This document shows positions 37,723 to 52,254 of a DNA stretch of 64,000 nucleotides, one piece after another. Every line of letters starts with the position of its first letter. Within the stretch, counting starts at the first letter, position 1. The notes beneath the pieces were generated by a model, which was not told the origin of the DNA, ran no database searches, and worked only from the letters and a program-made list of their open reading frames with translations. Location: assembly GCA_030263455.1 (NCBI GenBank), contig SZOZ01000012.1, positions 1 through 64,000 of the forward strand. Direction: 5' to 3'. Origin of the DNA: Synechococcales cyanobacterium CNB. GTDB taxonomy: Bacteria; Planctomycetota; Phycisphaerae; Phycisphaerales; UBA1924. The translations under genes and the position numbers were made by a program.

Positions 37723-38118
37723 TCAGGAAACGACCGAACCGGGCGCAACCTCCGCCGACGGCGACAGCACCACGACACGGCGTGAATCACCCTCGCCCGG
37801 CTCGCTGGCCGCCAGCAGCATCCCGCGCGATTCCTCGCCGCGGATGGTCCGGGGCGCGAGGTTCGCGACGATCACGATGCACCGGCCGACAAGTTCCTCC
37901 GGCTTGTAGTGCTCGCGAACTCCGGCGCAGATCTGCCGCGTCGTCCCGGAGCCGTCATCGACCCGGAGTTTGAGGAGGCGATCCGCGTTCGGGTGCGGCT
38001 CGGCCTCGATGACGCGCGCGACGCGCAAGTCAAGACGCGCGAAATCTTCGAAGGTGATGGTCGGCTTCGCCGGCGAGGCCTGCGTCAAGCCGGTTGAAGG
38101 CGCGGTCGAGTCGGACAT
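37723..38118 (-). CDS. Stand-alone tRNA-binding domain protein (CsaA/Trbp111-like)
   Basis: This 131-residue protein is a free-standing version of the C-terminal tRNA-binding domain of methionyl-tRNA synthetase (OB fold). ITFEDFARLDLRVARVIEAE, HPNADRLLKLRVDDGSG and RQICAGVREHY are characteristic, as are VIVANLAPRTIRGEESRGM and LAASE. Such proteins bind tRNA or act as CsaA-like secretion helpers. ATG 38118 has GGAGAT upstream. It is convergent with the preceding coiled-coil gene. I see no synthetase gene nearby. Confidence 0.9.
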   Translation of the reverse strand: MSDSTAPSTGLTQASPAKPTITFEDFARLDLRVARVIEAEPHPNADRLLKLRVDDGSGTTRQICAGVREHYKPEELVGRCIVIVANLAPRTIRGEESRGMLLAASEPGEGDSRRVVVLSPSAEVAPGSVVS

Positions 38119-38186: not shown

Positions 38187-39077
38187 CTACTCCGCGTCCG
38201 GCTTCACCCATCCCCCGCCGCGCCACAGGCACCGCTCGGGATCGACGCCGAGCGAAGCCGCGAAGGTCTCGGGATCGAGGTCACGCAACGGCGCACCGCC
38301 ATCCACGGCCAACTGCGCGGCCCACGAGCGGTGAACTCCCTCCAAGAGGCGGGATTCAAGCCGCAACTGGTCGATGAACTCCGCGGCGGACATCTGCGGG
38401 CCCGGGTCGCCGCGGCAGGTCGCGCACAACCGGTAACTCGGCGGGTCCGTTCCCGGTACGAAGACAGCCCGCTCGTTGCGGCACTCCGGGCATGGCCATG
38501 CCGCGGCATAGCGCTCCGTGTTCCAGAGCACGCTGCCCGCACCGCCGAGGCCGACAAGCCGTCCGTAGCGTTCGAGGGCCTCACGCACGCCGGACTTTCG
38601 CAGGAGTTCCCGTGCGCGGATGCCCTGCCCGGCGCGGGCCTCGCCCATCGCCTCCGCGGCCGCGAGCGCGATCTCCGAGCGCAGCACCTCGTCGCGCCCG
38701 CGCATCCACTCCGGCATGGCGTAACGCCGGTCGAGCCTGCTCGCCATCGCCGCAAGCCACCGCTGCTCGGAATCCACACGCGCGATCGCCGCCAAGCCCA
38801 TGCACGCGCTGGCTCCGACTCCGGCCGACCAGTTGCGGCGACGGTCGTGCTCGAAGGCGAGGGCGTAGAGCGTGCGAGCCAGTTCGACCTGCGCCGGGTC
38901 GTCCGCTTCGTAAGCAACCTCCTCCGCGAGCAGCAGATAGCCGCGCGGGTCGGAGGGCGACAGCGCGGCGAGGCGCTCTTCGAGCCGCGGGATCGGCAGC
39001 GTGGCGAGAGGCAACGCCTGCTCCGGCTGCGCCAGGGCGACCGTGACGGCCAGCGTTGCTGCGAGGAGGATGCTCAC
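38187..39077 (-). CDS. Exported zinc-ribbon protein, last gene of the VWA/ExbBD run
   Basis: This 296-residue protein starts at GTG 39077, overlapping the previous stop (GTGA). A hydrophobic export signal (SILLAATLAVTVALAQ) is followed by a helical domain and a two-Cys-pair zinc ribbon (WPCPECRNERAV, RLCATCRGDPG). No family is recognised. Being the promoter-distal member of the eight-gene run, it is presumably made with the ExbB/ExbD machine. The zinc ribbon in an exported protein is somewhat unusual. Confidence 0.75.
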   Translation of the reverse strand: MSILLAATLAVTVALAQPEQALPLATLPIPRLEERLAALSPSDPRGYLLLAEEVAYEADDPAQVELARTLYALAFEHDRRRNWSAGVGASACMGLAAIARVDSEQRWLAAMASRLDRRYAMPEWMRGRDEVLRSEIALAAAEAMGEARAGQGIRARELLRKSGVREALERYGRLVGLGGAGSVLWNTERYAAAWPCPECRNERAVFVPGTDPPSYRLCATCRGDPGPQMSAAEFIDQLRLESRLLEGVHRSWAAQLAVDGGAPLRDLDPETFAASLGVDPERCLWRGGGWVKPDAE

Positions 39078-41950
39078 GGCCGTTCCTCTCCGAAGCGGAT
39101 CGCCCACAGGCGGCCGATCGCCAGTTCGGTCGCGGCGATCTGGTGCAGGATGTGCGTGGAGGCACGGCGCGAGTTCCCCAGCTCGGCGAGCACGCCCGCG
39201 GCCTCGGCGGCTCGCTCGGGTCTCTCCACCGCGATCACCGCAGAGAGCAGTTCCGCGATCGCCAGCTGCTCGACGGCGAATCGCTGCACAGGCCCGCCGG
39301 CAACGGCCAGCCTCGCCGTGCGGCGACGCTCGATCTCCTCCGCCCGCACGACGCCCGATCGCCCTGCCGAGAGTTCAGCGGCGAGTCGTTGCCACTGCGC
39401 GCGCACGCGGGCAGCGCTCTCGTCGGCCGAAGTGGGCGTGCCGTCGGACGATGATGACGCGAGCGCGGACGGTACCATGCCCGCGTACGTTTCGGCGAGC
39501 AGCGGGGCAAGGCGATCGACCCGCCCGACCTCCCCCTCGGCCGCGAGCAGCTCCATCAACCGCTCGACCAGCATACGCCGCGTCTTGAGCTTCCATTCCG
39601 GATCGCGGATGGAAACGACTGTCGTGCCTGTCATCTCCGCGACCAGTTCTGCGTTCTGGATCGTGCGCGGCATGGTCGGCGCCTGCTCGAGCAGACCCTT
39701 GACGGCCGATGCGTTCAGCCGCAGCGTGAGCAGGGCGTCGCGCGCAGCCAGGCGGACCTGTGCCGGCGAGCCGCGCACCGCCTCCTGCGCCACCACCTCG
39801 CCGCTGATCGGGTCCAGGAGTGAGCCCCCGGCAAGTTCACGGAGGAGGGCAACCCGAGCGTCAGCGTCGCGCTGGGCTGAGATGTAACGGACAGCCCATG
39901 CGCCGTCGTACCTCCCCGGCGAGACGACCGCCTGATCGCCGACGCTGCCGCGCGCCGTTTCCATCGCGTCCTTGACGGGAGCGTCAAGCCGGTCGATGAG
40001 GACAGCGGCAGCGTCCAGGCCGCCGGCCCACCGCAGCGCGGCGGCCGCGTTCAATCGGGCCGCGACCACCGCGCGGGCGAGGTGCTCGAACGGCGCGCGA
40101 TCACGCTCCGCATCGCGCACGATGCGGCGCAGTTCGCGGAGCCAGGCGTCCGCGAGATCGTCGCGCTGAGCAGCGGTCGGCAACCCCCAAGCGGTCTCGT
40201 ACCTGCGCAGCAGTTCCCGGCGCTGGGCATCGATCGAACGCGCCGGCAGCGACATCAGCGGATCGACGCCCTCGGCATTCGACCGCGTCGCGAGCGCGGT
40301 CGTGATGACGTGCAGGTCGGCGTTCGAGACGCGCGGGTTGCCGAACGCCTGCGCAAGCCACGCGCGAGAACGATCGCCGCGCCGCCAGGTGAGCGCGAGC
40401 GTCAGTTCGACCATCGCGTCGGCGATCGCGGCGTCTTCGTCCGGTTCCGGCCCCGCGAGAACCAACGCATCCAGACCTGCGAGCAGCAACTCGGTCCGTC
40501 GCGCGGGCTGCTCGGCCGCGGCGGCCTCGACGGCCCGCGTCCAGCGCTTCCATCGCTCCAGTTCCGCTTCTCGCCCCGGACGCTCGCCCAGCACGAACCG
40601 CCGCGGCATCAACCCCAGCGCGGCGACCGCACCAGCCTCGAACGTGCGCCCGGATGCCGGTGCAGCGCCCCCGATCGACTGAATGAGCGAGTCTTCGATG
40701 ACGCGCAATGCGGTCGCGCCCAGCGCGCCCTCGCCGCGCAGTCGCACCAGCACGCCGGCCGACCACACCGCAGGCCACACACCATCGGCGGTCGGCGCGG
40801 ACCCGTCACGCATGACCAACGACCCCGACGCGATCGCTTCTGCCGCCGCGGACGCGACGGGGGGCGTGCCCGACGCGGCGTGCATGAACTCCACGACCGA
40901 GTTGGTCGCCGCTCGCTGCCGATCGGGCGTGAGCAGGCACCAGTTGGCAGCGACGTCCTGCACCGACGAGCGAAAGACCGCCAGCGCCTCCGTGAGGTCG
41001 AGCGTCAGCCCGTCGGCGGCGACCTCCAGTCCGCGCAAAGCGGCGTTCAGCTCCGTCGCCGACGGAACGCCGGCGGTGCGTGGCGCGGCCTCCTTTGCGC
41101 CGCCGGGTCTGAGTGGGAACGGCTCGACCCGTGCCGGTTCTGCTGCCGTTCGCGTCGAGGGGGGGGGTGCTGGTGCAGGCTCGGCCGGGGTTCGGGGCGC
41201 GGTCAGGATGATGGCTGCGATCGAGCCGATCACCGCGAGCGCAACAAAGCCCCCGACGACCACGAACGCGCCGCGGCGCAGAATGCGCTTCGCGGGATCG
41301 TCCTCTTCGGGTCGGACCATCTCGGGTGGGCGTGGATCGGCAGGGCGTGGCGGCTCATCGGCGAGCGGCCTGGGCAGGCCGGAAAACCGCACGGGAACCC
41401 GAGCGGTCTCGCCGGGATCCGATGGCAGGGACGCGGGACGCGGCGCGCTTCGAGCATCCGATGAACTGCGGCTGCTGAGGCGTCGCAACGCTCCGATCAG
41501 TTCGTCCGGCGATGCCTCGCGGGCACGTGCCAGCAACATGAGCCGGCGCAACGATCGCCGGTTCCAGCCGCCGTAGCGGGCGAGCGTGAGCAGCGCGTCG
41601 TGCTCCAACAGAACACCGCGCCCGGCTTCCGAGGCAGGCGCGGCGAGGGCGGCCTGCTGCGCCGCAGCCTCACCCCCCCAGCGCCGTGCCAGATGGACAC
41701 GAACGGCAGGGTCGAGCAACTGCGCCGCGGCAGCGTGCAGCGCCAGCCGCACCTCGTCCGCCTCCGGCGTCTCGCTCTGGCGGTGCGCGGCCAGCGCCGC
41801 AAGACGCCTTTCGAGCGCAGCGATGACGACCGCATCGTCCGCTGCGCCCGGTCGCAACCCGAGCAGCGCGAACGGCCCCCCCCTGGCCGCGTCCTCGCCG
41901 AGAAAGCGGGCGATCAGCGAAACGCCGGAAGCATGGGGCACCGCGCTCAC
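39074..41950 (-). CDS. Large membrane-anchored protein with J-like N-terminus, in the VWA/ExbBD operon
   Basis: This 958-residue protein starts at GTG 41950, overlapping the stop of the upstream gene (GTGA). Residues 27-90 resemble a J-domain (FALLGLRPGAADDAVV, then PEADEVRLALHAAAAQLLDP) but lack the HPD tripeptide. A Pro/Arg-rich linker leads to one membrane helix at about residues 228-250 (FVVVGGFVALAVIGSIAAII). The remaining ~700 residues should lie in the periplasm and are helical repeats without a known family. Its position among ExbB/ExbD and VWA genes suggests a structural part of an envelope machine. Confidence 0.8.
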   Translation of the reverse strand: MSAVPHASGVSLIARFLGEDAARGGPFALLGLRPGAADDAVVIAALERRLAALAAHRQSETPEADEVRLALHAAAAQLLDPAVRVHLARRWGGEAAAQQAALAAPASEAGRGVLLEHDALLTLARYGGWNRRSLRRLMLLARAREASPDELIGALRRLSSRSSSDARSAPRPASLPSDPGETARVPVRFSGLPRPLADEPPRPADPRPPEMVRPEEDDPAKRILRRGAFVVVGGFVALAVIGSIAAIILTAPRTPAEPAPAPPPSTRTAAEPARVEPFPLRPGGAKEAAPRTAGVPSATELNAALRGLEVAADGLTLDLTEALAVFRSSVQDVAANWCLLTPDRQRAATNSVVEFMHAASGTPPVASAAAEAIASGSLVMRDGSAPTADGVWPAVWSAGVLVRLRGEGALGATALRVIEDSLIQSIGGAAPASGRTFEAGAVAALGLMPRRFVLGERPGREAELERWKRWTRAVEAAAAEQPARRTELLLAGLDALVLAGPEPDEDAAIADAMVELTLALTWRRGDRSRAWLAQAFGNPRVSNADLHVITTALATRSNAEGVDPLMSLPARSIDAQRRELLRRYETAWGLPTAAQRDDLADAWLRELRRIVRDAERDRAPFEHLARAVVAARLNAAAALRWAGGLDAAAVLIDRLDAPVKDAMETARGSVGDQAVVSPGRYDGAWAVRYISAQRDADARVALLRELAGGSLLDPISGEVVAQEAVRGSPAQVRLAARDALLTLRLNASAVKGLLEQAPTMPRTIQNAELVAEMTGTTVVSIRDPEWKLKTRRMLVERLMELLAAEGEVGRVDRLAPLLAETYAGMVPSALASSSSDGTPTSADESAARVRAQWQRLAAELSAGRSGVVRAEEIERRRTARLAVAGGPVQRFAVEQLAIAELLSAVIAVERPERAAEAAGVLAELGNSRRASTHILHQIAATELAIGRLWAIRFGEERP

Positions 41951-44649
41951 GGCGTCCCCCCCCCGTTCGGCACGGTGGGTGGCGTCGCCTGCATCGCGGC
42001 GTCGAGTTCGCGCAGCCTTGCTCCCCACGGCTCCGGGCCGAACTGCGGAAAGAGCGCCTTGTGCTGATCGAGCACGAGGCGGGCACGCGGCGCATCCACG
42101 GCCGCGAGCAACCGGAGCGATTCGTATCGCGCCTCGAACCACTCGTCGCTACCCTGCGCAAGGCCCGCCAGGAGCGTGCGCCAGCCTTCGAGAGCCGCCT
42201 CCGCATCGCCCGCTTCCTCGCTCAGGCGTGAGTAGCGACGCAGGGAGCGCGCGGTGTGCCTGCCGAGATCGATCAGCCTCGCGTCCAACCGCAGCGCCGC
42301 GCCGCGCGCCGCCTCGTCTCGCTCGAGCCGCCACAACGCATCCGCGGCATCCGCGATCGCCTCCATCAACGACGCGACCTGCTGGTTCGAGATCGACGAC
42401 TCCAGCGGCTCGAACCCAGCCAGGATGCGTGAGCCGGTGCGCACGACCTCCCTCGCGGCGAAGGCGTCGTCGGGATTGGACCGTCGCTGTTCGAGGGCGA
42501 CGCGGTACACGAGCCGGTCCGCGGCCTCGGCGAAGCGACCGCCGATCTCCTGGAGTCGCCGCGAGGCGGCATCGATCTTCGGACGATCACGATGGACGAG
42601 CGCGATCTGGAGTTTGCGGTACTCGATCTCCTCCTCGAGCGCGTCGAGATTGAGTCCCAGGTACGCGCGAACCTCTTCGAGCGCCGCCAACGCACGCTCG
42701 GCGCGTCGAACGTCGGGCGCCGCCGCCGACATCAGCACGTCGAGCATCTGCCGGACGCGGAGCACGACGAAGTCCGCTGCCTCTCCCGCCTCGACCGGCG
42801 TGCCGTTCATCACCGTCCAGCGGTCTCGCTCGATCAACTCTTCCGCGACCGACGCGAACCTGGCAGCCATCGCGCCGCGGTCGGCGGGGCGTGCGATCCG
42901 GCACTGCGTGTACAGCAGCCGGGCAGCGTGCCTGCGTGCGACGTCGTACAGGGCTGACTCGCGCGGCACCGCGAGCAGCACCTCGATCGCTTCGACGTCG
43001 TCGAGCAACCCCCCCTCGACGCGCCTCAGCAGCAGCCGCGCCGCACGCTCGGTCTTCGGAAACGACTGCAGGAAGACGCCCGCGAGCCGGTCGCGCCGCG
43101 GCACGAGCGAGAGACGTCCGCCCTCCACGGCTCGATCAAGCGCGACGATCGCGTACCACAACGCCTCTTGGCGCTCGTCCTCGCCCGGGGCGAGCGACAC
43201 CGCAACCTCGTAGGCATCCGCGGCCGCCTCCGGCTCACCGGCGTAGTAGAGCGACAGTCCACGGAGCAATGCCGCCCGCGCTCGCTCCTTCGGGAACTTG
43301 CCCGCGTCCGCCGCCTCGACGCCGAGCAGCATCGCCCGCGCGGCCTCGCGGTAGCGGTTCGCCACCGCCTCGTCGGCCGTCGGCGCCTCGCCGTCCTCGC
43401 CTGTCTTGCCGTGGCTTTCGCGCGCCCGCTCGTATGCCCTCAGCCCTCGCACGAACTGCACGATGAACCCCTCGTTGCCGATCGGCGCGGTCCCATAGCG
43501 GCCCACGAGGTCGATCACGTGCCCGACCTCGCCGCGAGCGACCAGGTCGCCGAGGGCGGTCTGGGCCAGCGTTTCAAGGAGCCGATCCCGCCCGGCGACG
43601 CCGCGCGCCTTCGGGTCGTCGAGCGCCTCGAGCACAACGACTGCCAGCAGGCGCGCGTCCGCGGTTTCGAGGTGAGTATCCTTTCCGTCCGCCGCTCGTC
43701 GGGCGCGAGAAATCATCAGGTCGAGGTCAGCCCAACGGCGGGCCGCGCCGAGAACGGCGATGCGCCGGGTGAAGAGTTGTCGCCGGACGGACTCGGGCAC
43801 CTCGGGCGACTCGACCAGCACGTCGAGCCAGCGCACGGCCTCGACGTCGTTGCCCCGCACGGAAGCGGCCAACGCTACACCCATCGCGGCACGGGCCACA
43901 TGCTCGAACCGAAGCAGCGGACCGGGGAGCCGCTCGACGGTCGGCTCGCGGTTGCCCGGCGCGTTGAGCAGCCAACCGAAGTCCCGCTTCGCCTGCTCGG
44001 CGAGGCGGGCATCCCCGCTGACGAGCGCGAGGTAGTACCTCGACCAGCCGGTGTAGTACATGGCGAGCGAGCGCAGCCGGCGTGCCTCTGCGAGCTGCTC
44101 CTTGAGCGACTGCGGGTCGGGATCGCTGCCGCGCTGCTCGCGCCGTTCGAACGACTCGACCCGCCGGTGAACGTTCGATCCGACGTCCTCGAAGATGGGG
44201 AGCACGGACCGCAGGACGCGCTCTGCTTCGCTCCGTTCCTCGGGGCCGGCGATGCGAAGCCGGTGCAGCTCCGCCAGTTCCTCGCCTTTCAGGTACGACG
44301 CCTTGGCCAGGTTGATGCGGAGTTCAAACGACTCGGATTCCGGCACTTTTCGGAGCAGCTCGCGGCTGAGCGTCTCCGCCCGTGCGCGCTGCTCCGGCGT
44401 CGCGGCATCCGTGAGAAGCCGCACGTAGAGCGACCCGAGCCTCTCTGCGATGGCGACTCGCTCGTCGCCGAGCGCCGCGTCGAGCCGTTCCTGTAACCTC
44501 ACCGCGAGCAGGTCGGTCAGCCCTCGCTCGGCGAGGTAGCGCTCGACCGCGTCTTCCGAAGCCGGATCGGTCTGCGCGGCGGCATCGCCCGCGAAGATCG
44601 CGATAAACGCCAGCAGGATCGCGGTGATGGTTTCAGTTCGCCGGTACAT
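41947..44649 (-). CDS. Large exported helical-repeat (TPR-like) protein
   Basis: This 900-residue protein has a signal peptide (TITAILLAFIAIFAGDAAAQ) followed by helical hairpins resembling tetratricopeptide repeats: RRLRSLAMYYTGWSRYYLAL, ARAALLRGLSLYYAGEPEAA and EALWYAIVALDRAVEGGR show the TPR spacing. Such repeats usually hold protein partners together. ATG 44649 was chosen; it overlaps the ExbD1 stop by 17 bp, and an in-frame ATG ten codons earlier is also possible. It precedes and overlaps the 958-residue protein gene. I infer a periplasmic scaffold for the ExbB/ExbD complex. Confidence 0.78.
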   Translation of the reverse strand: MYRRTETITAILLAFIAIFAGDAAAQTDPASEDAVERYLAERGLTDLLAVRLQERLDAALGDERVAIAERLGSLYVRLLTDAATPEQRARAETLSRELLRKVPESESFELRINLAKASYLKGEELAELHRLRIAGPEERSEAERVLRSVLPIFEDVGSNVHRRVESFERREQRGSDPDPQSLKEQLAEARRLRSLAMYYTGWSRYYLALVSGDARLAEQAKRDFGWLLNAPGNREPTVERLPGPLLRFEHVARAAMGVALAASVRGNDVEAVRWLDVLVESPEVPESVRRQLFTRRIAVLGAARRWADLDLMISRARRAADGKDTHLETADARLLAVVVLEALDDPKARGVAGRDRLLETLAQTALGDLVARGEVGHVIDLVGRYGTAPIGNEGFIVQFVRGLRAYERARESHGKTGEDGEAPTADEAVANRYREAARAMLLGVEAADAGKFPKERARAALLRGLSLYYAGEPEAAADAYEVAVSLAPGEDERQEALWYAIVALDRAVEGGRLSLVPRRDRLAGVFLQSFPKTERAARLLLRRVEGGLLDDVEAIEVLLAVPRESALYDVARRHAARLLYTQCRIARPADRGAMAARFASVAEELIERDRWTVMNGTPVEAGEAADFVVLRVRQMLDVLMSAAAPDVRRAERALAALEEVRAYLGLNLDALEEEIEYRKLQIALVHRDRPKIDAASRRLQEIGGRFAEAADRLVYRVALEQRRSNPDDAFAAREVVRTGSRILAGFEPLESSISNQQVASLMEAIADAADALWRLERDEAARGAALRLDARLIDLGRHTARSLRRYSRLSEEAGDAEAALEGWRTLLAGLAQGSDEWFEARYESLRLLAAVDAPRARLVLDQHKALFPQFGPEPWGARLRELDAAMQATPPTVPNGGGTP

Positions 44650-45049
44650 ACGTCCGTTTCGTGAATCCCGCGTCAACACCGGCCTGCAACGCCACCGCCG
44701 CCGCGTCCCAGGGGACGTCTCCCGACACGCGGATGAAGACGCCCCCGTCCTTGGGAAGTTCTCGCAGCACGGCGACGAGCTGGCCTCGTTCCGTCAGCAC
44801 GTGCTGCCCGATGCGGAAGACCGGGACCGCCCCGGCCATCTCGACGCGGACGATCTGCGGCTGGAGGTCCGCGGCCGCGCCGCCGCGGCGCTCGGCGGCC
44901 AGCGCGCTGCCGACCTGCGACTCTCGCTTGGTGAACGTCGTCGTCACCATGAAGAAAATGAGGAGCAGGAAGACGACGTCAATCATGGTTGTCATCGGGA
45001 GGCGGCCGATTTCCTCGCCTTCACGCTCGGTCCGTCGAGTGAGCCTCAT
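44633..45049 (-). CDS. ExbD/TolR-type proton-channel subunit (first paralogue)
   Basis: This 138-residue protein has the ExbD/TolR layout: a short cytoplasmic start (TRRTEREGEEIGRLPM), one membrane helix with the conserved aspartate (TMIDVVFLLLIFFMVTTTF) and a periplasmic domain. ExbD together with ExbB forms a proton-driven motor. A second, different ExbD gene lies immediately upstream and overlaps it (ATGA), so the complex probably contains a heteromeric pair, as in some gliding or TonB-like systems. The ATG is fixed by the overlap. Confidence 0.9.
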   Translation of the reverse strand: MRLTRRTEREGEEIGRLPMTTMIDVVFLLLIFFMVTTTFTKRESQVGSALAAERRGGAAADLQPQIVRVEMAGAVPVFRIGQHVLTERGQLVAVLRELPKDGGVFIRVSGDVPWDAAAVALQAGVDAGFTKRTYVPAN

Positions 45050-45480
45050 GGCCGGCCCCCCGGCACGTCCGCGGTGCCCACCTGCCAGCGGCGCACGCCC
45101 AGCGCTGCCAGCCTGTCCACGAGGTCGTTCACAGTCGCGGCGCGGGCCGCGCGGTCGGCGCGAATCAGGAGTTCGAGGGAAGCCGCGTCGCCTCCGCGCT
45201 TGCCGATCTCGGCCTGCACGATGCGCACCGCGCCGTCGAGCAACACCGGCTCGTTCGCGATGAGGACGGTTCCATCCTGTCGGACGTCAACGACGACCAG
45301 GCCGGAGCCGACGGCCGCGTCCTTCTCACCCGGCTGCTCCGGCAGGTCGATCGGCGAGCGGATGAGTTGCGAAAACTGGGACGTGAAGAGGAAGAAGATG
45401 ATGAGCTGCAGCACGACGTCGATCATGGGCGTCAGATCGAAGCCTCGCTGCTTGCGGCCTGTTCTCGGCGACAGATTCAT
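45046..45480 (-). CDS. ExbD/TolR-type proton-channel subunit (second paralogue)
   Basis: This 144-residue ExbD has GFDLTPMIDVVLQLIIFFLF with the essential aspartate in the single membrane helix, and a periplasmic domain ending in DLVDRLAALGVRRWQVGTAD. It starts at ATG 45480, overlapping the ExbB stop (ATGA). Sequence identity to the neighbouring ExbD is low outside the helix, so the two paralogues probably do different jobs in one complex rather than being redundant. Confidence 0.92.
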   Translation of the reverse strand: MNLSPRTGRKQRGFDLTPMIDVVLQLIIFFLFTSQFSQLIRSPIDLPEQPGEKDAAVGSGLVVVDVRQDGTVLIANEPVLLDGAVRIVQAEIGKRGGDAASLELLIRADRAARAATVNDLVDRLAALGVRRWQVGTADVPGGRP

Positions 45481-46247
45481 GCCGTGCCGACCCCCGTACG
45501 CGGTCGCGGCGCCGGTTTCGCACCGGCTTGCGAGCCGCCCGGCGAGCCGGGAGCGGATGCCCCGGCGCTCTCCAGGTGTGATGCCAGGTCGTCGATGATC
45601 CGGGCGATCTCCTGGGCCATCGCGTCGATCCGGTTGCGCAGCCACGCGTACGCGGCGGTGCACGGGATCGCCACGATCAGCCCCATGACCGTCGTAATGA
45701 GAGCGACCGAAATGTCGCCCGCCAGTTCGTCCGGTCTGGCCACGCCTTCGCTGGTGCTCAGCGTGTCGAACGCGCCGACCATGCCGACCACGGTGCCCAG
45801 CAGCCCGAGCATCGGCGCGACCGTCGCGATCAGGCCGATCGACTCGGTCGAACGCTGGAGTTTCGAGACTTCCTGCTGGCCGGCCTCTTCCAGCGCGGAA
45901 CGCAGTTCGAGGAATCCGAACGCGGAGCGACGGCACCGGAGCAGGGCGGACCCGAAGACGCGGGTCAGGAACGACGCGTTCTCCTCGGCCGTGCAGTAGG
46001 CGATCGTGCCTTCTGTGTCGTTCGCTCGCAGCATCTCGTGCAGCCGCGCGACGTGAACAGCGGGAGCGAGGTGCTTCATCCGCAGGCGAACGACCTGCGC
46101 GATGATGAGCACCACCGCAACGAACGAAAGCGCGATGATGAGGAACCCGACCTGCCGCCCCTGCGAGATGTAGTCCATCAGCGACTTGTCCGTCGCCGCG
46201 TTCTGGGCCAGCGTAAGAACACCGGGCACGATCGTCGTGAGGATCAT
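45477..46247 (-). CDS. MotA/TolQ/ExbB proton channel family protein
   Basis: This 256-residue protein is the channel component. One helix near the N-terminus (VGFLIIALSFVAVVLIIAQV) is followed by a cytoplasmic loop and the conserved block LQRSTESIGLIATVAPMLGL, LGTVVGMVGAFDTL, then DISVALITTVMGLIVAIPCT, where the Thr-containing helix lines the proton path. It is about 100 residues short of the upstream open frame, whose extra sequence is antisense-like; ATG 46247 overlaps the preceding stop (ATGA). A disordered Pro/Gly tail ends the protein. Confidence 0.93.
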   Translation of the reverse strand: MILTTIVPGVLTLAQNAATDKSLMDYISQGRQVGFLIIALSFVAVVLIIAQVVRLRMKHLAPAVHVARLHEMLRANDTEGTIAYCTAEENASFLTRVFGSALLRCRRSAFGFLELRSALEEAGQQEVSKLQRSTESIGLIATVAPMLGLLGTVVGMVGAFDTLSTSEGVARPDELAGDISVALITTVMGLIVAIPCTAAYAWLRNRIDAMAQEIARIIDDLASHLESAGASAPGSPGGSQAGAKPAPRPRTGVGTA

Positions 46248-47392
46248 CGTCTTGCGGTCTCCGTTGAATGCGGAAGCGAATCGGCAGCTGCCTGCTCGGG
46301 TGTTGCCTCGCCGTGTCGCCGGATCGCGTCCCACTCGCACGCGGGATGGCCGGCGAATCTCGTGAGCAGTTCCGCGCGGAGCCGCGCTGCACCGCCAGGG
46401 TCGCCCAGCGATTCGAGGGCAACGGATGCGTCGGCGAGGGCGATTCCCGCGAGGTAGGGCAGTTCTCTCTCGAACGAGGCGGGAACGGTGAGCAGCTCGA
46501 CAACGCCGAGCCGGCGCGCCCCGTCGTCGGCCTCCATCAGCAACGAGCGGCCTCGGGCGAGCCGCGCCCACGCCTGCTGCCACGGAGGCGCACCCGCGTC
46601 CAGCGACGGCGCGAGCGCCGAGCGTGCGGCTTCGCGGGCCGCACCGTCCGTCGCCGTCGTCGCACTGACAATCCGCGCCACGAACTCAACACCAGGCTCG
46701 CGCGACGTGACGATGGGCAACGTGGATTCGACGCCCGATGTTGCGCGTGCGGCGTGGAGGTAGAGCGCGGCGTAAGCCTCCGCGCGGGTCGAGTACGGCG
46801 TGCGAGCAGTCAGAGCACCTCCCGTCGCCAGCACGCGCACCGCGGGACCCGGCACCCACACCGGCGGCAGGTCCGGGACAAGGCCCGTCTCGCCGTCGAG
46901 GACGCCGTCGATGTTCGCGTCGTCACGCACGGCAGGAACACCGCTCGCCTCACGCGCGCGGAGGAACGACACCCACGGAACAATCGCGAGCGATTGTGCG
47001 TTGCGCGCGAGGCGGCACCGGAGCAGGCCGAAGGCGATGCGCTCGCCCGTCGGCCCCCGGTTGTCGTGCATCGATTCGAAGAGTTCCTCGAAGAGCGGCT
47101 CAGCAGCGGGGACGTCGCCGTGTTCGAGGCGTGCCCTGGCCCTCCACGCCCGATTCGCCATCGGCATGTACGCCTCAGCGACCGCGGCGTGCTCGCCGCG
47201 CACGACGAGCACCTTGTCCCATGGCACGACGACCGGCGCGGCGCCACCATCCCGCACCGCGACGCCGTCCGACGAAACCGCAACGATCACGCCGGGCGGC
47301 GGCATCTCTCGACCGCGCAGCGTCAATGCAGGCTCGTCCGCCCACGGCGAGACGACGACCGCGATCGTCGCGAGCACGCCGATGGGAATCAC
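46244..47392 (-). CDS. Exported protein of unknown function in the VWA/ExbBD operon
   Basis: This 382-residue protein has a hydrophobic N-terminus (MIPIGVLATIAVVVSPWADE), a probable signal peptide. A small beta-rich region (GVIVAVSSDGVAVRDGGAAP) precedes helical repeats, with blocks such as YAALYLHAARATSGVE and RLRAELLTRFAGHP. No family is recognised. It starts in the overlap with the VWA gene (the VWA stop lies at 47389) and ends in the ExbB start (ATGA), so it is firmly part of the run. It may be a periplasmic partner of the VWA protein. Confidence 0.78.
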   Translation of the reverse strand: MIPIGVLATIAVVVSPWADEPALTLRGREMPPPGVIVAVSSDGVAVRDGGAAPVVVPWDKVLVVRGEHAAVAEAYMPMANRAWRARARLEHGDVPAAEPLFEELFESMHDNRGPTGERIAFGLLRCRLARNAQSLAIVPWVSFLRAREASGVPAVRDDANIDGVLDGETGLVPDLPPVWVPGPAVRVLATGGALTARTPYSTRAEAYAALYLHAARATSGVESTLPIVTSREPGVEFVARIVSATTATDGAAREAARSALAPSLDAGAPPWQQAWARLARGRSLLMEADDGARRLGVVELLTVPASFERELPYLAGIALADASVALESLGDPGGAARLRAELLTRFAGHPACEWDAIRRHGEATPEQAAADSLPHSTETARR

Positions 47393-48396
47393 GGCCCGCC
47401 TCCCGGCACGAAGGTGTACGTCCCGCCGGACTCGCGCGCGATCCGCCGCATGAGCGCCTCCGCCTCGCGGGACATGAAGCAGATGGAGTGGATCGGCACC
47501 CGGTGCTCGGCATTCAGGCGTTCGATCTCGCCCGCAACCTGATCGGGAAACTCGCCGTCCGTCATGAAGAAGATGGCGTCCGGCCTCGGACGGAGTTGAA
47601 AGGCGAGGTGGAACGCGGGCGCGGGGTTCGTGCCGCCGCCGGACTGGATGGCCATCACCTCGCGCCGTGACGATCGTTTGTTTCGCTCGTTGGCCTGGAG
47701 CCAGCGGACTTCGCCGCCGAGCGGGATCGCCCCGGTCGAGAACGTGATGGGCAGGTAGTGCGTGTTCTCCATCAGCCCGTCGATCGACTTGGTAAGTTCG
47801 TCCCGGAGCCGCTCGATCCTGCCGCCGAAACTCATCGACCCGGAGGTGTCCACGATGTAGACGAAGCGCGAACCGGTCGCTTCCGCGCCGAAGAAACCAG
47901 CTCCGCCCGCACCGCCGCCGCCCTCGCCCATGCCCGGTCCGCTGCCGAGGTCGCCCGCTCCGGTGAGCGAGCCGGTCTCGGCGAGTTCGTGCATCGCGCC
48001 GCTGAGGTCGATGTCCGGGGGCGCGTCGAGGAGATCAACAGTCGCCGTATCGGGCAGCGTGACCTCCGGGACGACGGGCGATTCGAGCGAGAGGGCTTCG
48101 TCGGTCAACTGCGCCAACTCGACGTCCGTCATCACGGCGAAGTCGACAACCGATGCACCTCCCGCCGCTCCGCCCCGCGAGTTGTGCTCGACTCGCAGGT
48201 GCATGGCGATGAGCCAGGCCGTCAGGTGGATCAGCAGCGAGACGACAACGCCGACGACCGTCGCCCGCTTTGCGAATCGGATGAGCCGGACCTCGAAGGG
48301 GACCTCCGGCGTCTCCCCCCCCGGCGCGGTCGGCCACATCAACCCACCCGGGGCCGGATCGCGCCCAGCCTCCTGCTGGCTTTCGCTGCGGCTCAT
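47389..48396 (-). CDS. VWA domain protein with TonB-like membrane anchor
   Basis: This 335-residue protein is the first gene of the run. The cytoplasmic N-terminus leads into a membrane helix, TVVGVVVSLLIHLTAWLIAM, at residues 46-65, with Ser53-x3-His57. TonB carries the same Ser-x3-His spacing in its single helix, which contacts ExbB/ExbD. A Gly-rich linker (about residues 135-165) leads to a VWA domain with an intact MIDAS: VDTSGSMSFGG, SGGGTNPAP and FMTDGEFPD. ATG 48396 has AGGG upstream; an ATG four codons earlier is also possible. I infer a periplasmic, metal-dependent ligand-binding domain moved by the proton motor. Confidence 0.85.
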   Translation of the reverse strand: MSRSESQQEAGRDPAPGGLMWPTAPGGETPEVPFEVRLIRFAKRATVVGVVVSLLIHLTAWLIAMHLRVEHNSRGGAAGGASVVDFAVMTDVELAQLTDEALSLESPVVPEVTLPDTATVDLLDAPPDIDLSGAMHELAETGSLTGAGDLGSGPGMGEGGGGAGGAGFFGAEATGSRFVYIVDTSGSMSFGGRIERLRDELTKSIDGLMENTHYLPITFSTGAIPLGGEVRWLQANERNKRSSRREVMAIQSGGGTNPAPAFHLAFQLRPRPDAIFFMTDGEFPDQVAGEIERLNAEHRVPIHSICFMSREAEALMRRIARESGGTYTFVPGGGP

Positions 48397-49985: not shown

Positions 49986-51761
49986 TCAGCGAACCACGAT
50001 CGCCTTGGGCAGGGTGAGCAGTACAGGCTCGCGGCGGAGTTGCACGAGGGCCGCGGCGCCGCGCCTGACCTGCGACCAGGTCTGATCCCCGAGCAGTTCG
50101 CCGGCCGCGTCGGTGAATCCTGCCGGGAGCGACAGACCCGGCGCTGCCAGCGCCGAGCCGAACATCTCTTCGAGCAACTCCGCGATGCTCTTGGGACCGG
50201 GGAACTCGAGCACGTCGTACTCGTCAAGACCGAGTTCGGCGGCGATCGCTTCGATGCACGAGTCCAGGCCCCCGATCTCGTCCGCCATGCCGAGCGCGAT
50301 CGCCCGCTCGGCCGTGAACAGACGACCCTCGGCGGTCTTCGAGAGATCGATGCCGGGTCGCCCCGCGACGACGCGGCGGGCGAACAGGTCGTAGGTCTGC
50401 TTCATCTTCGCCCGGACCTGCTCGACCTGCGTCGGTGACCACGGCTCGGTGGATGAGAACATGTCGCCCGCCGGGCCGCGCGTCCGGGTCGTCACCCGCA
50501 CCTTGAGTCTGTCGTAGAGCGGCCCCATCGAGATCTTGCCCCCGACGACGCCGATCGAGCCGACGATGCTCGACGGGTTCATGTAGATGCGGTCGCCGCC
50601 GACGGCGATGTAGTAGCCGCCCGAGGCCGCCATCGACCCCACGCTCACCCAGACCGGCTTCTCGGCAGCGACACGCCGTAGCCCTTGCCAGATGACCTCG
50701 CTCGCGGTCGCCGACCCGCCGGGCGAGTCGATGCGCACCACGACGCCGAGGATCAGGTCGTCGTGGAGGATGTCGTCAAGAGCGTTTCGGATGGTGCGGC
50801 TGCCGACGCTCGACTCGCCGAGGAACCCGCCCCGGGACGAATCGCCGTCCACGATCGCGCCGTCGATATAGACGACCGCGATGCTGGGCATTTTGGCCGA
50901 GTGGTCGGGCTGCTGCGTGAAGATGCGGAAGACCGCGAAGGGGTCCGACATGCTCGGCGGCTGCACGGACGCTCCGAGTTCGTCGGCCCACTCGACTTCC
51001 GCGCCGAGCGATGACGCCAGCCGGTCCTCGATCTCGTCGAGATCAACTTCTCCGTCGAGCAGTCGATGGCGAACGGCCTCCTCCGCCGTCCCCCACCACA
51101 GGTCTCGCATCGCCGCGTCGAGTTCCGCGTCGCTCAACCCGCGGTTCGCCTTCAGCGTCGCCCGCATCTCGGCGTACAGCCCGTCGAGCAGTTGGGTGAC
51201 GTTCTGGTCCCACGCCTCGCTCGGGCCGCTTCGCGTGAACATCTCGTTCGCGCCCTTGTAATCGCCGACCTGCACAAGATCGGCCTTCATCCCGATCCAC
51301 GTCAGCGTGTCTGCAAGGAATATCTCCTCCATGTGCATCCCGGGGAACGACACCGAACCCGCCCGCTGGATCAGGCTCTCGTCCGCGTACGACGCGAGCA
51401 GCAGGTCGGTCGGCCCGTAGTTCTCGGCGTACACGATCACCCGCTTGCCGGCCTCCCGAACCGCCAGCATCGCATCACCCAACTCCTGCACGTGGGTAAA
51501 CCCCAGCGCGGAGTCCTTGAGGCGGACGAAGACCGCGTCCACGTCGTCGCGCCACGCGGCCTCGTGCAGCATCCCGACATAGTCCCGGAGCGTGGTCTCC
51601 CCCATGCCCAGCCACGCCAGCGGGCCGGCAGCCTCCACCGGCGCGCCCTCGACTTCGAGGACGACGACACCCGCCGGACCGCCGTCGTGCGCTCTCGTGC
51701 CAGGGACGAAGACTGCAAGGACGAAACAGGCCGCCAACCAACAGACGACAGCGTGACGCAT
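49986..51761 (-). CDS. sppA: Signal peptide peptidase SppA, 67-kDa type
   Basis: SppA is a membrane-associated serine protease that degrades cleaved signal peptides. This 591-residue protein is the tandem-domain type: the N-terminal half carries the catalytic lysine in VQVGDYKGANEMFTRS (Lys169) and the C-terminal half carries the serine in VSVGSMAASGGYYIA (Ser380). VVVRIDSPGGSATASEVIWQ and NPSSIVGSIGVVGGKISMGP are conserved. ATG 51761 gives a clean signal peptide (VVCWLAACFVLAVFVPGTRA); the frame upstream is antisense. It should sit in the inner membrane facing the periplasm. Confidence 0.93.
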   Translation of the reverse strand: MRHAVVCWLAACFVLAVFVPGTRAHDGGPAGVVVLEVEGAPVEAAGPLAWLGMGETTLRDYVGMLHEAAWRDDVDAVFVRLKDSALGFTHVQELGDAMLAVREAGKRVIVYAENYGPTDLLLASYADESLIQRAGSVSFPGMHMEEIFLADTLTWIGMKADLVQVGDYKGANEMFTRSGPSEAWDQNVTQLLDGLYAEMRATLKANRGLSDAELDAAMRDLWWGTAEEAVRHRLLDGEVDLDEIEDRLASSLGAEVEWADELGASVQPPSMSDPFAVFRIFTQQPDHSAKMPSIAVVYIDGAIVDGDSSRGGFLGESSVGSRTIRNALDDILHDDLILGVVVRIDSPGGSATASEVIWQGLRRVAAEKPVWVSVGSMAASGGYYIAVGGDRIYMNPSSIVGSIGVVGGKISMGPLYDRLKVRVTTRTRGPAGDMFSSTEPWSPTQVEQVRAKMKQTYDLFARRVVAGRPGIDLSKTAEGRLFTAERAIALGMADEIGGLDSCIEAIAAELGLDEYDVLEFPGPKSIAELLEEMFGSALAAPGLSLPAGFTDAAGELLGDQTWSQVRRGAAALVQLRREPVLLTLPKAIVVR

Positions 51762-51846
51762 GGAACTTTCTCCAGGAGCACTCCGCTCGCTCCGCCAGAG
51801 TGTACCGCCTGAACCGCACCAGGAACCGCCCCGCGAGCCTTTTCGC

Positions 51847-52254
51847 TCAGTCGTACCCGAGGTCCGCCAGGTCGTCCTCGTCCAGCCCGAAGTGGTGCCC
51901 GATCTCGTGCAGGAGCGTGATGCGGATTTCCTCACGCACGGCCTCGTCGCCGCTCTCCCACCCCCCGGCGAGGTTCACGATGCCCACGCGGAAGAGGTGG
52001 ATGTCGTCCGGCAGGTCGCCGGAGCGATCGACCGACCGATCGGGCAACGAGACCCCCGTGTGCAGGCCGCAGAGTTCCTCGGCGGCATCGGCGTGCTCCT
52101 CGGGCGGGATGCCGAGTTCGTCGAGCAGGGCGGGGGACGGCCGGTCAACAACGATCACCGGCAGTTCCTCCAAGACCGCGCGCACACGCCTCGGCAGGCT
52201 CTCGATCACCTCCTCAAGCAACCGATCGAACCGTGCACGCTCGGCCTCCGTCAT
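51847..52254 (-). CDS. Zincin-like metallopeptidase (DUF1025/PF06262 type)
   Basis: This 135-residue protein has a metal-binding signature at the C-terminus, ITLLHEIGHHFGLDEDDLAD (HEXXHHXGL). The N-terminal part includes LPRRVRAVLEELPVIVVDRP. The family is known by structure as a small minimal gluzincin-like metallopeptidase with unknown substrate. ATG 52254 overlaps the stop of the upstream zinc-ribbon membrane protein (ATGA), so the two are co-translated. Confidence 0.88.
   Translation of the reverse strand: MTEAERARFDRLLEEVIESLPRRVRAVLEELPVIVVDRPSPALLDELGIPPEEHADAAEELCGLHTGVSLPDRSVDRSGDLPDDIHLFRVGIVNLAGGWESGDEAVREEIRITLLHEIGHHFGLDEDDLADLGYD

Follow-up and report, generated by a model that had tools for sequence, protein, structure and literature searches.

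Known VWA transducers and the operon in the window

Force transducers that combine an SHLS-bearing helix with a vWA domain, and whose genes lie with tolQ, two tolR genes and a TPR gene, have been described in bacteria of the Planctomycetes-Verrucomicrobia-Chlamydiae (PVC) group, among others, by Williams-Jones et al. 2025 (PMC12204202). In an AlphaFold3 model from that paper, the transducer helix contacts the motor by way of its His, the SHLS motif occurs in many but not all members, and a gliding-like role is suggested, with the function stated there as unknown. A second VWA family in the same paper lacks both SHLS and tolR. In the Ton system, cryo-electron microscopy shows Ser16 and His20 of TonB in contact with Ser34 and Trp38 of the first transmembrane helix of ExbB, and Trp38 in contact with Pro190 (PMC12215075). 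The D-box of TonB, a strand of the order hydrophobic-polar-hydrophobic-polar-hydrophobic-hydrophobic-polar, is captured by two ExbD subunits and has been proposed as a coupling element (PMC10907165). The gliding machine of Myxococcus includes AglR, AglQ and AglS along with the bitopic GltG and TPR proteins (PMC3169522).

We analyzed a 64,000-nucleotide stretch of planctomycete DNA (the whole of which we call the window: positions 1 to 64,000 of the forward strand of contig SZOZ01000012.1, assembly GCA_030263455.1, from a 3.2-Mb genome deposited as Synechococcales cyanobacterium CNB) and found that its minus strand carries, from 48396 to 38187, eight co-directional genes arranged head to tail. 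Adjacent genes overlap by 4 bases at six of the seven junctions and by 17 bases at the remaining one, ExbDb/g6. Pfam models matched a VWA_3 domain in the first product (1.8e-7), MotA_ExbB in the third (3.9e-29) and ExbD in the fourth and fifth (1.5e-15 and 4.1e-13), and no accepted domain was found in g2, g6, g7 or g8 in Pfam or NCBIfam. The gene calls and Pfam matches bear out the earlier note on this DNA, made from the sequence alone, in its claim of an eight-gene operon with ExbB and two different ExbD proteins, most of whose genes overlap.

We conclude that this operon is a variant of the vWA transducer family of PMC12204202. Like the first family of that paper, in which the linker is disordered and has a predicted motor box, its VWA protein has an N-terminal SHLS-type helix, a linker with a putative motor box and a C-terminal vWA domain. 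Next to its gene lie one tolQ-like and two distinct tolR-like genes (absent from 14 related operons, discussed below) and also a TPR gene (g6 by its profile, with g2 TPR-like by its model). The statement of the earlier note that no described system of this composition was known to it therefore does not stand. That note had also named an already characterized homologous set as grounds against its proposal, and this applies in part: a homologous set has been described, by prediction rather than by experiment. Judging from sequence, we regard it as rather probable that the eight products form a trans-envelope machine akin to Ton, Tol and Agl that is driven by protons, with the VWA protein as its force transducer.

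A VWA protein in the proposed place of TonB

The VWA protein (335 residues, 47389–48396, on the minus strand like all operon features below) consists of a membrane helix, a D-box-like strand, a Gly-rich linker and a VWA domain. Its only membrane helix, assigned by hydropathy to about residues 45–67 (48196–48264), contains Ser53 and His57 exactly where the earlier note had placed them. Among 100 VWA sequences, 98 of which had a readable helix, Ser53 was kept in 95 (Thr in 2) and His57 in 97, and no other position within residues 45–69 exceeded 74 of 100. The residue at His+7 was Ala in 74/100 and Leu in 3/100, and that at His+11 was variable. The VWA_3 domain spans residues 179–329 (47404–47868), the linker lying between it and the helix, and its metal-ion-dependent adhesion site (MIDAS) was intact as claimed: D183, S185, S187, T256 and D280 were identical in 40 of 40 aligned sequences, that of the window included. 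The labels "adhesive" and "metal-dependent", which the earlier note gave to the domain, are read off this site and are best taken as putative.

Residues 84–90 (VDFAVMT in the window, 48127–48147), 27 residues past His57, fit the pattern of the TonB D-box when "polar" is taken as any residue except V, I, L, M, F, Y and W. The pattern fits 71 of 98 sequences at this column, compared with 7 at the next best column and 8 of 8463 other linker 7-mers, and the putative strand would correspond to the motor box of the PMC12204202 family. The distance from His to the strand is 25–28 residues in 64 of these 71 sequences; the corresponding distance from His20 of TonB is 25 with the peptide numbered 43–54, the structure passage of PMC10907165 using numbers 12 higher. 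The strand may thus be a second TonB feature of the protein, which the earlier note did not mention.

The one clear replacement of His57, by Asn, was seen in an earlier alignment at locus L053, whose contig stops after g2; the same genome has an unusual ExbB-ExbD-ExbD set on a separate contig (L116). The genome of the window also encodes, at L115:5328-6344, another protein with a Ser-x3-His N-terminal helix near a lone ExbD gene, and this protein had no Pfam match at 0.01.

The motor residues of ExbB and of both ExbD proteins were kept. In ExbB (ExbB/TolQ type, 256 residues, 45477–46247, PF01618), the pore threonines Thr152 and Thr186 were invariant (34/34 each), as were Asp21 of ExbDa (ExbD/TolR type, 144 residues, 45046–45480) and Asp24 of the second, different ExbD/TolR-type protein, ExbDb (138 residues, 44633–45049; 34/34 each). 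The ExbB sites that partner the TonB Ser/His contacts were also kept, namely Ser41 (67/67) and Pro195 (66/66). These aspartates bear on the idea that the VWA protein is itself the axle and sits within the ExbB ring, an arrangement described for the second VWA family (PMC12204202). A one-helix VWA protein encoded beside an ExbB gene would suit such an arrangement. However, the operon has two ExbD genes with an invariant Asp, the VWA helix conserves Ser and His but no Asp, and the second family is described in the available passages as lacking SHLS and tolR. The axle reading is already contradicted by these features, and we consider it extremely improbable.

Several observations weigh against the transducer interpretation. 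The VWA helix does not conserve the Leu and Ser that complete the SHLS motif (in Ton, too, these two are the less conserved residues; PMC12215075), and a phmmer comparison of the helix region with solved structures gave no match, to TonB and TolA or otherwise. The Trp with which Escherichia coli ExbB contacts the TonB His was found in 0 of 67 operon ExbB sequences, 47 of which had Val there, and ExbB position 181, aligned to a TolQ Glu, was mostly non-acidic (1 Glu in 34). Nevertheless, as far as its sequence can tell, the VWA helix is TonB/TolA-like, and the Ser/His pair, pore threonines, ExbD aspartates, D-box-like strand and gene set together support the proposal of the earlier note that a VWA protein probably stands in for TonB/TolA with an ExbB/ExbD motor.

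Overall, we suggest a putative mechanism. An ExbB pentamer would hold one ExbDa and one ExbDb, and protons passing by way of the ExbD aspartates and the ExbB threonine ring would move this axle. The VWA helix would dock outside ExbB through Ser53 and His57. ExbDa and ExbDb would bind the strand at 84–90 with their periplasmic domains, in the way that two ExbD capture the TonB D-box. Force would travel along the Gly-rich linker to the VWA domain, and the MIDAS of this domain would grip a partner, most likely one of the co-encoded proteins g2, g6, g7 and g8. The load-bearing scaffold could be formed by the secreted helical repeats of g2 and g6 together with the membrane-anchored solenoid of g7, the J-like domain of which would be cytosolic in the orientation that we infer.

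Conservation of the gene set and operons without a motor

The closest named relatives, metagenome-assembled genomes of Phycisphaeraceae and Planctomycetota, encode VWA proteins with 90–91% identity to that of the window, and 59 of the 61 relatives' genomes sampled had a VWA match (E<=1e-3). Contig ends cut three (L038, L053 and L060) of the 40 loci collected around these matches. The 37 complete loci comprised 32 with all eight genes in order (30 from gene calls alone; the VWA gene of L051 and the ExbB gene of L061 were seen only by tblastn) and five without the ExbB-ExbDa-ExbDb trio, among which the g8 of L039 was likewise seen only by tblastn. At L041, a single 1203-residue gene call spans g7 and g8. 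A further set of named loci, the best 80 of 269 relatives, overlaps the first. All eight genes were found in 51 of these, which agrees with the kept gene order and answers the conservation check proposed in the earlier note. Only the trio was absent in 8, and 2 lacked the trio on a contig ending after g6; a g8 call was missing from 7, including 2 at contig ends, the contig stopped after g6 in 4 and earlier in 5, and gene calls were missed in 3 (L140, L167 and L177). Outside Phycisphaerales, the complete set was found in one distant planctomycete genome (G178, locus L211), and a g6 match at 1e-10 was present in 8 of 149 genomes sampled across the phylum, 4 of the 8 belonging to the family of the window.

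The gene pyrH, named by eye, lies upstream of the operon and divergent from it in 68 of 78 loci, and a CsaA-like gene lies downstream in 45 of 60. The retention of both neighbors fits vertical inheritance of the operon. Moreover, TolB_N was matched in 0 of 37 genomes of the order, while the E. coli, Caulobacter and Bacteroides controls matched, so a Tol-Pal-like duty is possible. The machine might then be a planctomycete stand-in for Tol-Pal, with a motor-pulled VWA domain that holds or constricts the outer membrane at division, and the wide occurrence of the operon and its usual place beside pyrH would agree with such a duty. However, in the families f5 and f6 the VWA matches were weak (best 1.4e-24) or absent, as seen in six and five genomes, respectively, and neither G040 nor G041, both from these families, matched g6 at 1e-10. 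Additionally, the eight proteins contain no peptidoglycan-binding domain by Pfam, and the TolB_N search, which did not extend to Pal, would miss a divergent TolB or Pal. We consider this role unlikely.

In total, 14 operons lack the trio: 10 among the named loci (L065 and L162, being the same contig, are counted once) plus L039, L046, L047 and L071. Ser and His were kept in all 13 of their readable helices, and the VWA-domain score was no lower in them (354 vs 339), on which grounds we rejected the view that motorless VWA operons are broken. A single loss of the motor was also rejected: on a quick g6 tree with Shimodaira-Hasegawa-like approximate likelihood ratio test (SH-aLRT) support only, which included 13 of the 14 operons and left out L132, loss of the trio needs 7 changes, at least 6 of them forced by well-supported branches.

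These operons bear on another explanation, in which no force acts on the VWA protein and it serves instead as an assembly or regulatory factor for the motor, a MIDAS chaperone that Ser-x3-His merely attaches. VWA/MIDAS proteins frequently act in the assembly of other complexes, and the force on the VWA domain is something we infer. In contrast, the VWA protein, g2, g6, g7 and g8 persist with Ser and His conserved where the motor genes have left, and a D-box-like strand exceeds the needs of attachment, being a proposed coupling element in TonB (PMC10907165). We consider an assembly factor quite unlikely, and somewhat less likely than the stand-in for Tol-Pal.

Searches of the genomes with operon-type profiles separated the motorless operons into two groups. 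In six genomes (G013, G206, G207, G210, G213 and G214), the cognate motor lies elsewhere, with 120–163 bits for ExbDb and 272–295 bits for ExbB; in five of them (G207 was not tabulated), ExbB, ExbDa and ExbDb are adjacent and without other operon genes. No cognate motor was found with these ExbDb and ExbB profiles in G208, G209, G211, G212, G215, G020, G031 and G016, where the top scores were at most 63 bits for ExbDb and 147 for ExbB. Incomplete assembly was rejected as the general cause of this loss, G016 being 98% complete in 8 contigs with no cognate match. For L132 (G208), it is the likely cause, because its near relatives L134 and L139 have a relocated motor.

All eight of the motor-lost genomes contain the ExbB of a second ExbB-ExbD-ExbD trio (L102–L105, L107–L112) that is unlinked to the operon, and four of these genomes (L102–L105) showed the complete second trio. 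In G020, the only two MotA/ExbB-family matches are a MotA-like one (by eye) and the second-trio ExbB. By eye, no transducer lies beside the second trio in the five tabulated loci (L102–L105 and L107). The association of this trio with motor loss is statistically weak because its ExbB also occurs in 23 of 36 family-sample genomes (matches above 280 bits, the next at 162); the search alignment drew 4 of its 10 sequences from motor-lost genomes. At Ser+4, the site of E. coli Trp38, a Trp is present in 5 of 9 second-trio ExbB copies from motor-lost genomes (L102, L103, L104, L290 and L291, apparently one clade on the trees) and in 0 of 23 others.

The D-box-like strand differs between the groups. 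Scored with a weight matrix built from intact operons less than 60% identical, it averaged 14.3 in intact (n=85), 14.1 in relocated (n=5) and −0.1 in motor-lost operons (n=8), and with p values uncorrected for kinship the lost operons scored below the intact (p=0.0005) and the relocated ones (p=0.02), the latter two not differing (p=0.32). The strict pattern fitted 66 of 85 intact and 5 of 13 motorless operons (Fisher p=0.006). On these scores, the strand has altered chiefly in operons that have lost the cognate motor, which we read as its probable re-fitting to another motor.

Taken together, these data led us to a tentative proposal, to which we give slightly less than an even chance: in at least one Phycisphaerales lineage, the VWA transducer has lost its cognate motor and runs on the unlinked ExbB/ExbD/ExbD trio. 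In such an exchange, the ExbB-contacting Ser/His would have stayed fixed and the ExbD-contacting D-box would have been rewritten, and the adopted ExbB would carry, in 5 of the 8 motor-lost genomes, a Trp at the site that contacts the TonB His. Some of our data count against this proposal. The whole-helix score was slightly lower in motorless loci as well (28.8 vs 32.8, p=0.03). An intact clade (L135, L144, L146, L149, L150 and L164) has a changed D-box, scoring at most 2, with its motor kept, and L052 and L053, counted as intact, also score at most 2. The lost operons L132 (18.5) and L047 (11.6) retain a fair D-box score. Furthermore, 6 of the 8 motor-lost operons lie close together on the g6 tree, so that few independent events underlie the D-box contrast.

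Accessory proteins and comparison with known systems

The window's g2 (382 residues, 46244–47392) and g6 (900 residues, 41947–44649) have signal-like N-terminal segments by hydropathy, and g8 (296 residues, 38187–39077) likewise by eye; across the 80 loci, only some g2, g6 and g8 calls meet the hydropathy cut-off. The model of g2 (predicted local distance difference test score, pLDDT, 91.4) has a small beta domain (residues 23–64) followed by TPR-like helical repeats, and a few of 50 g2 members gave weak TPR matches in Pfam. The g6 profile matched TPR structures (best 1.5e-6), which suggests a secreted TPR-type solenoid. In g8, Cys 196/199/218/221 are present in 89–97% of 36 sequences; the CxxC...CxxC pattern of the zinc ribbon claimed in the earlier note is thus conserved, and we call it zinc-ribbon-like, leaving the zinc itself aside.

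The model of g7 (958 residues, 39074–41950; pLDDT 81.9, predicted template modeling score, pTM, 0.48) is bitopic, with a helical N-terminal domain (12–167), a membrane helix (220–250, 41201–41293, also by hydropathy) and a large helical domain (298–952). Of the two proteins that the earlier note had placed facing the periplasm, g6 agrees through its signal-like N-terminus, and g7 would do so apart from its first ~165 residues, which precede the membrane helix. When aligned by hhalign to 20 J domains taken from the same bacteria, the N-terminal part of g7 scored 73% (E 3e-5), with controls from 6 other families and 5 column shuffles at or below 1.5%, and we assign residues 24–98 (41657–41881) to a putative degenerate J-like domain. 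This assignment comes from hhalign alone, the fold searches having barely covered the J-like part, and no J-domain Pfam model was among the families matched by 48 g7 members (E 0.1). The HPD (His-Pro-Asp) triplet was complete in 0 of 47 members: 42 had the His, 26 the Pro and a single one (L175) the Asp, this last member lacking both His and Pro. Fold searches with g7 and g2 returned generic helical-repeat matches that named no relative (best E 0.006 and 0.16, respectively; Z 8.4 for g7). In a distant region (L212), a g6 relative is paired, by eye, with a J-like protein.

Among the neighboring genes, the window has a CsaA-like tRNA-binding protein gene after the operon (37723–38118) and, past pyrH and frr, a frame that resembles an SppA peptidase by eye (49986–51935). 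A cluster of 22 similar-looking proteins upstream of related loci resembles this SppA-like frame.

The scaffold invites comparison with Agl-Glt of Myxococcus. Like that system, the operon pairs one ExbB with two ExbD that differ from each other, and it adds secreted TPR proteins and a bitopic protein that has a domain at its N-terminus. It might accordingly be a surface or envelope transport machine for gliding or the movement of surface polymers, since the Agl-Glt motor plan is alike (AglR with AglQ and AglS, TPR proteins and bitopic GltG; PMC3169522) and a gliding-like role is the suggestion of PMC12204202 itself. Against this, Pfam found in the eight operon proteins no match to a TonB C-terminal or FHA domain, such as GltG has, or to an outer-membrane beta barrel, although Agl-Glt includes outer-membrane components, and no gliding report turned up for these uncultured lineages in literature searches, none of which was aimed at gliding. 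The outer-membrane adhesin of Agl-Glt gliding, CglB, is itself a VWA protein. Here, the VWA domain sits on the transducer itself and is held by an N-terminal helix, unlike CglB. We regard an Agl-Glt-like transport role as improbable, about as much so as the Tol-Pal-like one.

As a Ton/Tol-type machine driven through the VWA protein, the operon resembles TonB-ExbB-ExbD and TolA-TolQ-TolR in its Ser-x3-His helix, similarly spaced D-box-like strand, pore threonines and ExbD/TolR Asp. It differs in having a VWA domain in place of the TonB/TolA C-domain (only VWA-type models match), two different ExbD, and an ExbB without the equivalent of E. coli Trp38. Unlike DnaJ and other J-domain proteins, g7 lacks a complete HPD motif, and unlike Tol-Pal, the set occurs in an order with no TolB_N match in the genomes searched. 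Compared with the PMC12204202 family, the VWA gene comes first here and is often downstream there, conservation of SHLS is limited to its Ser-His half, and the conserved set includes g6, the J-like bitopic g7 and the CxxC-bearing g8; relocation or loss of the motor genes is not mentioned in the available passages of that paper. The literature searched, which set aside preprints and most subscription papers, described no other VWA transducer for ExbB/ExbD or TolQ/TolR, nor a J-like g7 or a loss of the motor, no search having been aimed at the last two.

If our interpretation is correct, the Ton/Tol principle of a proton motor pulling across the periplasm is widened to a machine that grips by an unusual domain, has a large conserved scaffold and is kept through much of a planctomycete order. 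The intact, relocated and motor-lost operons make it testable whether force passes via the helix-ExbB or the D-box-ExbD contact, and a motor exchange, if true, would be a natural engine swap of a force transducer that separates the two contacts experimentally. As far as we have seen, what distinguishes this operon from the systems described so far is its eight-gene composition with a degenerate J-like protein and the history of its motor, including the 14 motorless operons.

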